In this document: positions 3,132-17,815 of the stretch, one piece after another | How the letters are laid out: every line of letters starts with the position of its first letter | How positions within the stretch are numbered: the first letter of the stretch is position 1 | IMG/VR virus record: IMGVR_UViG_3300035682_000195 | Location: 1 to 23,481 of that record | Length of the DNA stretch: 23,481 nt | Reading direction: 5' to 3' (one strand) | From: a virus | The notes under the pieces: generated by a model | What the model was told of the DNA's origin: nothing | Databases searched by the model: none | What the model saw: only the letters and a program-made list of their open reading frames with translations | Position numbers and translations under genes: made by a program

Positions 3132-3728
3132 ATGAAAGTAGATAAAGTTAAAATCAGCGAGGTTAAGACCAACCCAAAGAACCCGAGACTAATCAAAGAC
3201 GATAAGTTTAAAAAGTTAGTCAAATCAATACAGGAGTTCCCTCAGATGCTTGAGCTACGTCCTATTGTAGTAGATGAGAACAACATTGTATTGGGCGGCA
3301 ATATGCGTTTAAAGGCGTGTAAGGAAGCTGGATTAAAAGAAGTGTTTATTGTAAAGGCTGAGAACCTAACCGAGCTGCAAAAAGACGAATTCATAGTAAA
3401 GGATAACGTAGGCTTTGGAGAATGGGACTGGGATATGTTAGCTAATGAATGGGATACTGAATTGTTAGACGAGTGGGGTTTAGATTTGCCTGTTATGTTG
3501 GATGCTGATGAGTTTGGAACTGAATTTAGTTTAGCAGATGGGGATAAGCCCCCATTTCAACAAATGACATTTACTTTAGCAGATGAGCAAGCTCAGCAAA
3601 TTAGAAATGCTATTGAAGATATCAAGCATACTGAGGAGTATAAGTATGCGGAAACAATGGGCAATGAAAACACGAATGGAAACGCACTTTATTTAATTGT
3701 AATGCAATGGGCAGAGCAAAAGAAATAA
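3132..3728 (+). CDS. ParB/Srx-like nuclease-domain protein
   Basis: 198 aa. The ParB N-terminal fold is visible: KVKISEVKTNPKNPR, an ELRPIVVDEN strand and LGGNMRLKACKEAG (55-67), the GxxR phosphate-binding box of ParB-like domains that in ParB binds CTP. No helix-turn-helix follows as in chromosomal ParB; instead there is an acidic WDWDMLANEW region and a helical C-terminal part. Stand-alone ParB-like proteins in phages often sit beside DNA methyltransferases. Here the 3' end overlaps a Mom-like modification gene by 22 nt, which suggests a shared role in DNA modification or site recognition. Confidence 0.8.
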   Translation: MKVDKVKISEVKTNPKNPRLIKDDKFKKLVKSIQEFPQMLELRPIVVDENNIVLGGNMRLKACKEAGLKEVFIVKAENLTELQKDEFIVKDNVGFGEWDWDMLANEWDTELLDEWGLDLPVMLDADEFGTEFSLADGDKPPFQQMTFTLADEQAQQIRNAIEDIKHTEEYKYAETMGNENTNGNALYLIVMQWAEQKK

Positions 3729-4444
3729 TAGTTAAGGTTATACCTTCAAAGATTGCAAACGATTTTGTTAAAAAGCATCATTACTCAGGTAAGGTAGTTC
3801 CTAATTCAACACTACACTTTGGTTGTTTTTTAGACAACAACTTGCACGGTGTTATGAGTTACGGTCCAAGCATAAATAAAAAAGGCACAATAAATTTAGT
3901 TGAAGGCACAGGATGGAATGAGTTTATAGAATTAAACCGTATGGCATTTGACGATTATTTACCAAAGTATAGCGAAAGCAGATGTATAGCAATTAGCATA
4001 AAGCTCATAAAAAAACACGCTCCTCAAATTAAATGGATAATAAGTTTTAGTGATGGTACTCAATGTGGAGATGGCACAATATATAGAGCAAGTGGTTTTA
4101 AACTTGCTGGAATTGCCGAGAACTCAGGTATATGTAAAATAAACGGAGAGACTGCCCATATCAAAAAGACATACGATATGGGATTGACCAGTTCTTTTTT
4201 GAAGAAAAGTGATATACCAAAATTAAAAAAGTTAGGATATGAAGTTGAATTATTAGTTGGATACCAATTAAAATATATTTACTTAATTGACAAAAATTGT
4301 AAACTAACAGTTCCTATTTTACCATTTAGTAAAATTGATGAAGCTGGAGCAGGTATGTATAAAGGAAAAAAAATAAGCCTCACTGAACGTAAGGCTTTGA
4401 GCGGTGAGGTCGATTCGAACGCCAACTTTAAACTGGATGCTTAA
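3707..4444 (+). CDS. Mom-like DNA-modification protein (GNAT fold)
   Basis: 245 aa. The sequence matches the Mom family: KKHHYSGKV near residue 24, a strand HFGCFLDNNLHGVMSYG, then ELNRMAFDDYLPKYSESR (75-92) and IISFSDGTQCGDGTIYRASG (111-130). Mom of phage Mu converts adenines to N6-methylcarbamoyl-adenine, which protects phage DNA from host restriction; the same chemistry here is inferred from family. Residues 232-245 are encoded opposite a tRNA-like gene and look like antisense read-through, so the functional protein may effectively end near KKISLTERKAL. The gene is more AT-rich than its neighbours, consistent with recent acquisition. Confidence 0.8.
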   Translation: MGRAKEIIVKVIPSKIANDFVKKHHYSGKVVPNSTLHFGCFLDNNLHGVMSYGPSINKKGTINLVEGTGWNEFIELNRMAFDDYLPKYSESRCIAISIKLIKKHAPQIKWIISFSDGTQCGDGTIYRASGFKLAGIAENSGICKINGETAHIKKTYDMGLTSSFLKKSDIPKLKKLGYEVELLVGYQLKYIYLIDKNCKLTVPILPFSKIDEAGAGMYKGKKISLTERKALSGEVDSNANFKLDA

Positions 4445-14852: not shown

Positions 14853-15209
14853 ATGAATAAAATACTAAACAAAATCGCTGACATGGAGCGTAACGCAGCG
14901 GAGATTCAAGAAGTACAATTAAGTTCTCATAAAGTAGAATTAGCATTGTTAGATGAGATACTTGATTTGAATAGAGAAGCAGGTTCATTGTTGTCTTTGC
15001 CAGTTATGAAAATTGCTGAACAATTATCAAAATCTATTGAACTAAATAAAAAAGGATTGGCACAAGCTGAAAAAGGTTTAAAAGCTGCTCAAGATTTAGG
15101 GGTTCAAGATGGAATCGATACTTTTAAAAGATGGGTAAAAAGTTGTACTGATGATATTAAACGTGCTGAAAAAGGTCAAAAAATTCTTGCTGATTTATCT
15201 AAAATTTAA
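14853..15209 (+). CDS. Coiled-coil hypothetical protein
   Basis: 118 aa, almost entirely helical with heptad-like Leu/Ile spacing (EVQLSSHKVELALLDEILDL, then AEQLSKSIELNKKGLAQAEK). It starts 5 nt after the protease and is more AT-rich than its neighbours. No domain recognised; a head-assembly helper is possible from its place between protease and scaffold. It could also be a moron. Confidence 0.6.
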   Translation: MNKILNKIADMERNAAEIQEVQLSSHKVELALLDEILDLNREAGSLLSLPVMKIAEQLSKSIELNKKGLAQAEKGLKAAQDLGVQDGIDTFKRWVKSCTDDIKRAEKGQKILADLSKI

Positions 15210-15213
15210 GATT

Positions 15214-15423
15214 ATGAAAGAAAAATTTAAAACACCAAGCAAGGCAAGTCCAAGAGCAGGTAGCAAAAGAGGCTGCCTATGTGAAGACGGAAAATACTCA
15301 ACTAAATGTTGTGATGGCAGTTTACAAGCTCAGGGCATCGGTAAAACTGCAGAGGTTAACGAGCCTGCTCCTACTCAAACTGAGGTGAACGGAGTGAGAA
15401 CTATCGTACGTCAAAACGGGTAG
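15214..15423 (+). CDS. Small Cys-rich protein
   Basis: 69 aa; the ATG at 15214, 4 nt after the previous stop, is preferred to an upstream overlapping start. Basic N-terminus, then RGCLCEDGKYSTKCCDGSLQ with four cysteines in a CxC...CC arrangement, then a flexible Pro/Thr tail. The pattern suggests a small metal-binding or disulfide knob. Its stop directly abuts the stop of the minus-strand HNH gene. Function unknown. Confidence 0.65.
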   Translation: MKEKFKTPSKASPRAGSKRGCLCEDGKYSTKCCDGSLQAQGIGKTAEVNEPAPTQTEVNGVRTIVRQNG

Positions 15424-16182
15424 TTACAAGGCAAGTTTACGTTGATGTTCAACGACCTTATTATTCTTACTGATATTATCAAAAGCCCACAACGGCTGAA
15501 AATTTGTATAGTGATTTAATTCTAAAGCCATTTCGTAAGAGGTGGCTTTACTTATTGGGTATATATGGTCTAAGTGCCATTTTCCGTAGTTATCCCAACT
15601 CATACCTGATTGAAACCTACGTTCAATATAATCTTTAAAAAAATCCCATTCGCAACCCAGTATCTTTGAGCTTTTACTACCTTTTTTGTAACCTTGATTG
15701 CGTAATGATAAATAGATTAATTGTCTTGCGTTTGTTACAAATCGAAATAAACTATCTTCTTTATATTTCTTTTTACAATACTGATTAGTTCTTTTTGTGG
15801 TACAAGTTTTGCAATCAATATGTATATTATCGTATTTATATATTCTATAGTCGCTGTATTCATTACAAACACGGCAAAAGTATTTTGGAATATGACGTTT
15901 AACTGCGTTTGAAATACATCTTTCATGGTAGTGCGTTAACTTTCCATATTGTTTAATATATTTCTTTTTGTAATGCAAATAGTAAGGCTTAATATCATTC
16001 TTACTCCACATTTCATTTTTCTTTGATGCTTTTGGCTCAAATAAATCTGCTTGTTTTGTCTCAAATAAATCTGCTTGTTTAGGAAAGATTATTGATGCAC
16101 ACAAACCATAGGTGTGTATAAATTTATTTACAATATCATCTTTTGGCTTGTATTGACCTACCTTTTTTCTCGTTCGTTTCAT
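15424..16182 (-). CDS. HNH endonuclease with twin clamp-binding-type motifs
   Basis: 252 aa from the ATG at 16182; an upstream in-frame ATG at 16242 would add a hydrophobic leader but has no support. The C-terminal HNH fold is clear: WHLDHIYPIS (202-211; H203, D205, H206), LNHYTNFQPLW and NISKNNKV. A zinc ribbon C103/C106 and C124/C127 precedes it. QADLF occurs at 36-40 and 44-48, in a perfect 24-nt tandem duplication. It is the only protein gene on the minus strand here and is AT-rich, so it is best read as a free-standing homing-type endonuclease inserted between head genes. Confidence 0.82.
   Translation of the reverse strand: MKRTRKKVGQYKPKDDIVNKFIHTYGLCASIIFPKQADLFETKQADLFEPKASKKNEMWSKNDIKPYYLHYKKKYIKQYGKLTHYHERCISNAVKRHIPKYFCRVCNEYSDYRIYKYDNIHIDCKTCTTKRTNQYCKKKYKEDSLFRFVTNARQLIYLSLRNQGYKKGSKSSKILGCEWDFFKDYIERRFQSGMSWDNYGKWHLDHIYPISKATSYEMALELNHYTNFQPLWAFDNISKNNKVVEHQRKLAL
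16036..16080. repeat. 24-nt tandem duplication inside the HNH gene
   Basis: A 21-nt word at 16036-16056 recurs identically at 16060-16080 with a 24-nt period. On the minus strand it encodes KQADLFET then KQADLFEP, duplicating a QADLF motif in the HNH protein. The reading frame is kept. Confidence 0.9.
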
Positions 16183-16205
16183 ACTCAAATATATTAAAAA
16201 TAAAA

Positions 16206-16213
16206 CAAAGATA
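16206..16213 (-). promoter_or_regulatory. Possible -7 box for the HNH gene
   Basis: TATCTTTG on the minus strand fits the Bacteroidota -7 consensus TAnnTTTG and lies 23 nt upstream of the HNH start codon. The nearest TTG is 26 nt further up, longer than the usual spacer, so the promoter is weak or partial. Confidence 0.35.
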
Positions 16214-16253
16214 CAAGCCGTTGGTTTTTTCTTTGTATACAATAACTAAACAA

Positions 16254-16856
16254 ATGAACGAAAAATCAATCTTAAACAAAGTCCGCACACTTTTAGGTTT
16301 AGAAGTGAAGTTGGAAACTATGCGTCTTTCGGATGGCGTATCTATGCTCGAAGCAGAAGTATTTGAAGCAGGACAACCTGTGTTTATCCTAACGGAAGAC
16401 GAACAACGTATCGCACTCCCAATCGGTGAGTATGAATTAGAGGATATGCGTGTTTTAGTAGTTATCGAAGAAGGTGTAATTGCCGATGTTCGTGAAGCTG
16501 CTGAACCTGAAGTAGAAGTAGAAGTAGAATCTCCTGAAGCTCCAATGGTAGAGGAAGAAGTTGAAGCTGCTACTGAAACTGCTCCACAAGCTAAAAAAAT
16601 CGTTGAGTCTATCGTTAAAGAGTCTTTCTTCAGCGAAATCGAAGCACTTAAAAAAGAGAACGAAGAATTGAAAGCACAACTCAATTTATCTACTGAAGTT
16701 GCAGAAGAAGTTGCACCAGTTGAATTAAGCGAAGAGCCTAAGCCGATTTCTTTCAATCCTGAAAACACACAAGCTACTGACGTATTCAAGTTTGCTTCTA
16801 AAAGAAATGCAACTACTATGGATAGCGTATTATCAAGAATTTCTAACATTAAATAA
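16254..16856 (+). CDS. Scaffold-like head assembly protein
   Basis: 200 aa from the ATG at 16254; an upstream extension opposite the HNH start is rejected. N-terminal beta-rich part (LGLEVKLETMRLSDG, then ILTEDEQRIALPIGEYELED), an acidic Pro/Glu/Val stretch (83-112), a coiled coil (113-145, SIVKESFFSEIEALKKENEE) and a C-terminal NATTMDSVLSRISNIK helix. Acidic, extended, coiled-coil proteins directly before the major capsid gene are typically scaffolds that guide prohead assembly and are removed by the protease. This is inferred from composition and position. Confidence 0.68.
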   Translation: MNEKSILNKVRTLLGLEVKLETMRLSDGVSMLEAEVFEAGQPVFILTEDEQRIALPIGEYELEDMRVLVVIEEGVIADVREAAEPEVEVEVESPEAPMVEEEVEAATETAPQAKKIVESIVKESFFSEIEALKKENEELKAQLNLSTEVAEEVAPVELSEEPKPISFNPENTQATDVFKFASKRNATTMDSVLSRISNIK

Positions 16857-16864
16857 TTAATAAA

Positions 16865-17815
16865 ATGAGTACTACAACCTCGATTACAACAACTTATGCT
16901 GGCGATTTTGCTGGCAAGTACATCGCAGCAGCTTTATTGTCTGCACCAACCTTAGACAAAGGTGGTATGACTATCATGCCTAACGTCAAATTTAAGCAAG
17001 TAATTAAGCGTGTGGCTACGGATGACATCATCGCTAACGCAACCTGCGACTTCGACCCTACAAGCACAATCACTTTGACTGAGCGTATTCTTCAACCTGA
17101 GTCTTTCCAAGTTAACTTACAACTTTGTAAAACTGACTTCCGTTCGGATTGGGATGCTATCCAAATGGGTTACTCTGCATTTGATACCCTTCCTAAATCT
17201 TTCGCTGATTTCCTTATCGCTCACGCTGCTGAGAAAGTTGCTGCAGGTATGGAAACTTCAATTTGGAGAGGTGTTAACGCAACTGCAGGTCAGTTCGCAG
17301 GTATCATGACACAATTGACTACTGATGCTAACCTTCCATCTGCACAAGAAGTTGCAGGTACTACAGTTACTGCTGCTAACGTAATTACCGAGCTTGGTAA
17401 AATTATCGATGCTTGCCCTGCTGCTCTTTACGGAAAAGAAGACTTGACACTTTACGTTTCTTCTAACATCTATCGTGCTTATGTTCGTGCATTGGGTGGC
17501 TTCGCTGCTTCAGGTGTAGGTGCTAATGGTTACGATAACAAAGGAACTAACCAACAACTTGGTGATGTTTACTTTGATGGTGTTCGTGTATTTATGGCTA
17601 ATGGTATGGCTTCTAACACTGCATTGCTTGCTCAAAAATCTAACCTTTACTTTGCAACTGGTCTTTTGAACGACATGAACGAAGTTAAAGTATTAGACAT
17701 GGGTGACCTTGATGGTTCGCAAAATGTTCGTGTAATCATGCGCTTTACTGCAGATGCTAAATACGGCTTTGCTTCCGACGTTGTTACTTACGGAATCACA
17801 AACTCTGCTAACTAA
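16865..17815 (+). CDS. Major capsid protein (HK97-like)
   Basis: 316 aa. Single domain with an N-terminal arm (TTTYAGDFAGKYIAAALL), a helical part (SFADFLIAHAAEKVAAGMET) and beta-rich P/A-type regions including GTNQQLGDVYFDGVRVFMANG. The order scaffold, capsid, tube-like gene and the well-adapted codon use (GCT, GGT, AAC) fit an abundant structural protein. The gene is followed by a strong terminator. The HK97 fold is inferred from context; no direct motif is unique to it. Confidence 0.8.
   Translation: MSTTTSITTTYAGDFAGKYIAAALLSAPTLDKGGMTIMPNVKFKQVIKRVATDDIIANATCDFDPTSTITLTERILQPESFQVNLQLCKTDFRSDWDAIQMGYSAFDTLPKSFADFLIAHAAEKVAAGMETSIWRGVNATAGQFAGIMTQLTTDANLPSAQEVAGTTVTAANVITELGKIIDACPAALYGKEDLTLYVSSNIYRAYVRALGGFAASGVGANGYDNKGTNQQLGDVYFDGVRVFMANGMASNTALLAQKSNLYFATGLLNDMNEVKVLDMGDLDGSQNVRVIMRFTADAKYGFASDVVTYGITNSAN

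Follow-up and report, generated by a model that had tools for sequence, protein, structure and literature searches.

Proteins that dock on the sliding clamp carry a short peptide of the form Q-phi-x-[L/M]-[F/L] or the hexameric Q-phi-x-[L/M]-x-[F/L], and the natural clamp motif of Pol III alpha is QADMF, with isoleucine tolerated at the last position (PMC11139829). IS transposases bind the beta clamp, usually through a C-terminal motif, Q-L-x-L-F (PMC4549789). That a sliding clamp can recruit an HNH nuclease is established in principle by the human enzyme ZRANB3, an HNH endonuclease which PCNA brings to forks (PMC5481773). A literature search, with most subscription journals outside its coverage, found no phage HNH nuclease recruited in this way. 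Here, we analyse a 23,481-base virus record (hereafter the window, meaning this whole stretch of DNA), which encodes a terminase, Mom-type DNA modification, a head protease and structural genes, together with an HNH endonuclease in which the pentapeptide QADLF occurs twice. We put the probability at roughly 70% that this is an ordinary free-standing mobile phage HNH gene with a recent, non-conserved duplication in a linker, and that clamp contact, if any, is likelier to be made by the C-terminal tail.

The HNH gene lies antisense between two phage genes, and its stop codon abuts that of the upstream one:

15214–15423, plus strand: upstream flanking phage gene, 69 aa, found in relatives whether or not they have the HNH gene
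15424–16182, minus strand: HNH endonuclease gene, 252 aa, endonuclease VII-type (phrog_1035), ATG at 16182
16254–16856, plus strand: downstream flanking phage gene, 200 aa, followed closely by the gene at 16865–17815

From its position, the gene at 16865–17815 is taken as the major capsid gene. Elsewhere in the window, a ParB-N-domain gene is followed directly by a Mom-type DNA modification gene (3132–4444; Pfam Mom, E 9e-49).

Within the HNH gene, two conserved elements can be placed:

15802–15876, minus strand: C2C2 zinc ribbon (C103-x2-C106...C124-x2-C127)
15457–15579, minus strand: HNH catalytic core, W202 to K242 (D205-H206, H224, N227, N236)

An earlier reading of the sequence alone (the sequence-only reading) had called the protein an HNH enzyme with a zinc ribbon, and both parts of that description are borne out. 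All four ribbon cysteines are invariant in the seven closest relatives, and D205, H206, H224, N227 and N236 of the core, which reads WHLDHIYPIS...NHYTNFQPLWAFDNISKNNK, are invariant or nearly so across 70–74 relatives. Given these HNH residues and a profile match over residues 103–246 to phrog_1035 'endonuclease VII' (E 3e-10), we assign the protein to the endonuclease VII type; the Pfam HNH and NCBIfam profiles gave no match to it. AlphaFold2 produced a poor model from seven sequences (mean pLDDT 57.8) and a better one from 70 (mean pLDDT 69.3), in which the HNH core is still weak; the 70-sequence alignment leaves out four rows from named phage records. Foldseek and PDB sequence searches for a solved HNH fold returned no significant match, the query model being weak in the core. 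Many HNH relatives (L012–L081, L196–L298) have N-terminal halves built from helical repeats in tandem, for instance YRLNNKEKIKEYxKxY, whose number varies from one relative to another, and linker duplications are common in the family.

The position of the gene is a variable one. Among 61 related viral loci with both flanking genes, two hold this HNH gene, three have no insert and 56 hold something else. The slot measures 57–60 nt in three of these loci and 350–700 nt in 54, and exceeds 1 kb in two that have no HNH gene; among the gaps examined, small ORFs occupy the larger ones. As a whole the slot (window 15424–16250, L087–L164) is a variable hot spot, with small ORFs of an MNTxKSVYNKLF family that are strongly diverged though the flanks are conserved, and the window gene at 14853–15209 may be a relative of these ORFs. 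The two slots above 1 kb (L104 and L122) contain other antisense ORFs of about 94–118 aa. Compared with the window, the HNH coding DNA of one close relative (L003) differs at nine aligned positions and by a 24-nt gap, with flanks that are 80–87% identical, and another (L005) shows the opposite pattern, with 82% identity across the HNH gene and 91–94% in the flanks. Such uncoupling of gene and flank identities is what a gene moving independently of its surroundings would leave behind. Two marks of a free-standing homing endonuclease are found here, a site left empty in close relatives and a history independent of the flanks, and homing, which they support indirectly, is the mechanism we infer. 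A search among named phages found no DNA-level relatives of the region.

The doubled motif lies in the N-terminal part of the protein:

16000–16107, minus strand: linker, residues 26–61, which the deeper AlphaFold2 model shows at low confidence and without secondary structure
16030–16077, minus strand: 24-nt tandem duplication, KQADLFET/KQADLFEP
16063–16077, minus strand: QADLF copy 1, residues 36–40
16039–16053, minus strand: QADLF copy 2, residues 44–48

The translated ORF, in which the peptide bearing the motifs reads FPKQADLFETKQADLFEPK, confirms QADLF at both of the places claimed for it. What had been described as a perfect in-frame 24-nt tandem duplication is indeed a 24-nt tandem duplication, but its copies are identical at 23 of 24 positions. 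It is the top-scoring tandem repeat in the window (TRF score 95), and thus a genuine duplication rather than a chance resemblance. In the 70-sequence model residues 26–61 have a pLDDT below 50 and form no secondary structure, which suggests a disordered linker that probably leaves QADLF accessible, a requirement for any docking peptide, although low model confidence is no proof of disorder. The linker is also locally hypervariable: in the comparison with L003, five of the nine substitutions fall in 39 of 735 nt and four in the other 696 aligned nt (Fisher p 3.5e-5). This local hot spot may reflect selection, drift or allele exchange.

Both copies of QADLF are present in a relative whose protein is 98% identical (L002), and of the viral contigs searched for the doubled motif, that of L002 was the only one to carry it. 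Two sequences that are otherwise nearly identical to the window protein (L003 and L004, at 98% identity) have a single copy, reading QTDLL, and a third at 74% identity (L005) has QETLL at the site. Five relatives at 46–50% identity (L006 to L010) have no such motif there, and N-terminal searches found no further QADLF carriers. Of 67 full-length relatives, two contain Qxx[LM]F, against 1.6 expected from shuffled sequences, and the motif is therefore not enriched. We accordingly reject QADLF as a conserved motif; it is largely lost in homologues, an outcome that the sequence-only reading had named as refuting clamp docking. Given that the relatives mostly carry one copy or none, parsimony makes the duplication recent and derived from a single-copy state, and its confinement to the window phage and one near-identical relative rules out the doubled QADLF as a conserved docking device. 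A docking motif at this site may be under weak selection, since the four nearest sequences all keep Q-x-x-L-[F/L].

The sequence-only reading had gone further and proposed that the enzyme could be anchored to the host clamp by its two QADLF motifs and bind more avidly for having both. Part of its basis holds. QADLF fits the clamp motif and resembles DnaE of Bacteroidota, which has QVSLF, QQSLF or QIDMF in 14 genomes (the clamp motif of MutS was present in only one of two genomes), and the segment around it is predicted to be unstructured and accessible. Of the properties expected of a clamp client, a motif in an accessible segment is thus found in the predicted disordered linker, but conservation among homologues is not: the N-terminal motif is altered or lost in every relative but one, with no enrichment across the HNH family, and the C-terminal tail described below is present in 25 of 90 only. 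For a motif of five residues that is not retained in relatives, a fit by sequence is weak evidence of docking. Moreover, two motifs 8 residues apart would be too close to fill both pockets of the clamp dimer, and we consider such a tether very unlikely.

A second candidate for clamp contact is found at the other end of the protein:

15427–15444, minus strand: C-terminal tail QRKLAL-COOH, candidate clamp-binding hexapeptide, with counterparts in relatives' tails and predicted to be unpacked

The ending Q-x-x-[LM]-(x)-[LIF]-COOH is found in 25 of 90 representative relatives against 0.5 expected from shuffled tails. In the same phage loci, 27 of the 102 HNH ORFs have it, but only 4 of 718 ORFs of at least 120 aa outside the HNH family. 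These counts are inflated by common descent, and the pattern was noticed after the fact. Tails of the relatives include EKQLILI, EKQLILL, EKQLTLL, EKQLFLL, NGKQIKLL, NTQIKLI, NIQLKLI, HQRMLPF, HQMILPI and HQTKMPI. The strict published clamp definition covers four representatives only, and HQRKLAL of the window protein fits the motif only loosely. Of the four non-HNH ORFs with the ending, Pfam identifies two as DNA methyltransferases; the third is closely related in sequence to one of the two, and the last matches no Pfam family. Phage DNA methyltransferases of the C5 and N6/N4 types (L083, L053 and L075) have C-terminal tails of this kind, ending in TQLELL, NQLELL and NQQKLF, and a further protein (L063) has GQLKLF at its end. 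On the tree the tail comes and goes, its presence needing at least 12 changes, of which three are forced by starred branches. Measured from the NK anchor, the position of the Q varies by one residue with Q..L retained, and codon differences inside tail types are synonymous. Relatives that lack the tail stop directly after the core NK, hence it is dispensable for the fold; in the 70-sequence model residues 247–252 are unpacked and form no strand. In Flavobacteriaceae-group genomes, Pol IV ends in QLKFDF, QLKFEF or QLKLQF. An origin of the EKQLILI tail from the gene that normally precedes the insertion site was considered and is unsupported, as window gene 2555–2755 ends in WWYITKR (by eye).

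These endings make the C-terminus a plausible clamp-binding tail, as judged from sequence. Tails of the form Q-phi-x-L-[L/I] or Q-x-x-[L/M]-[A/P]-[L/F/I] (here QRKLAL) may attach members of the HNH family to the host beta clamp in the manner of IS transposases and Pol IV, with QADLF as an accessory second site, a proposal that we regard as possible but doubtful. The excess of tails over shuffled endings and over other ORFs, where two of the four carriers are methyltransferases by Pfam and a third resembles one of them, argues for it, as do the repeated gain or loss, the Q..L kept through the one-residue shift with synonymous codon differences, and the predicted lack of packing. Its place at the extreme C-terminus is that of the Pol IV motif and of motifs in transposases (PMC4549789), and published definitions tolerate a last isoleucine and admit hexamers (PMC11139829). 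On the other hand, common descent inflates the counts, the strict definition fits few representatives, isoleucine or arginine at key positions makes for a weaker motif than the consensus, and about 70% of relatives have no tail. That the tail is a structural or protease-recognition element unrelated to the clamp has a somewhat less than even chance: hydrophobic residues are abundant and the HNH part of the model is low-confidence in places, but tail-less relatives are common and the model gives the tail no strand. The boldest version, a widespread phage HNH family whose exchangeable, Pol IV-mimicking clamp tail couples cutting or repair to replication and in which the doubled QADLF is a newly arisen second site, appears unlikely.

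Under the preferred reading of an ordinary mobile gene, the protein would be a free-standing HNH nuclease with an endonuclease VII-type core and a zinc ribbon, encoded in a variable stretch that separates two genes of the structural region in a phage of Bacteroidota type. The nuclease would most likely cut competing phage DNA without the HNH gene, and the gene would then be copied in through recombinational repair. The doubled QADLF would have arisen as a recent 24-nt slippage duplication inside an unstructured, fast-changing linker, and any clamp contact in the family would more likely be made through the C-terminal tail. What is left of the clamp idea is a lead that concerns chiefly the tail, through which docking may take place. 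If there is no clamp binding, the locus holds a mobile HNH gene of the ordinary kind whose linker has been duplicated in part.

The closest described proteins are phage HNH nucleases of phrog_1035, for example those of Flavobacterium elemo phages and Pseudomonas phage JBD44, which are 43–54% identical to the window protein in the HNH core and, like it, are encoded by single stand-alone genes. They differ in an N-terminal half that is unlike that of the window protein and has no QADLF, and, unlike it, they are without the C-terminal tail. ZRANB3 resembles the window protein in being an HNH nuclease with two clamp motifs, candidate ones in the phage enzyme; in ZRANB3 they recruit and stimulate it. 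However, it is eukaryotic, contains an SNF2 ATPase and has motif binding established by experiment, and we claim no membership. IS transposases share with the window protein that they are mobile-element enzymes with a short, usually C-terminal motif (a candidate one in the HNH protein), but their binding is experimental and their catalytic fold unrelated. Pol IV of the Flavobacteriaceae group has Q-L-K-[F/L]-x-F at its extreme C-terminus, similar to HNH tails such as QLKLI or QRKLAL, although it is a polymerase whose motif is itself read from sequence. If the tails do bind the clamp, mobile phage nucleases would be added to the elements, such as transposases and Tn7 TnsE, that make use of the replication fork, and this would account for the way in which an HNH enzyme of weak specificity locates phage DNA that is being replicated.
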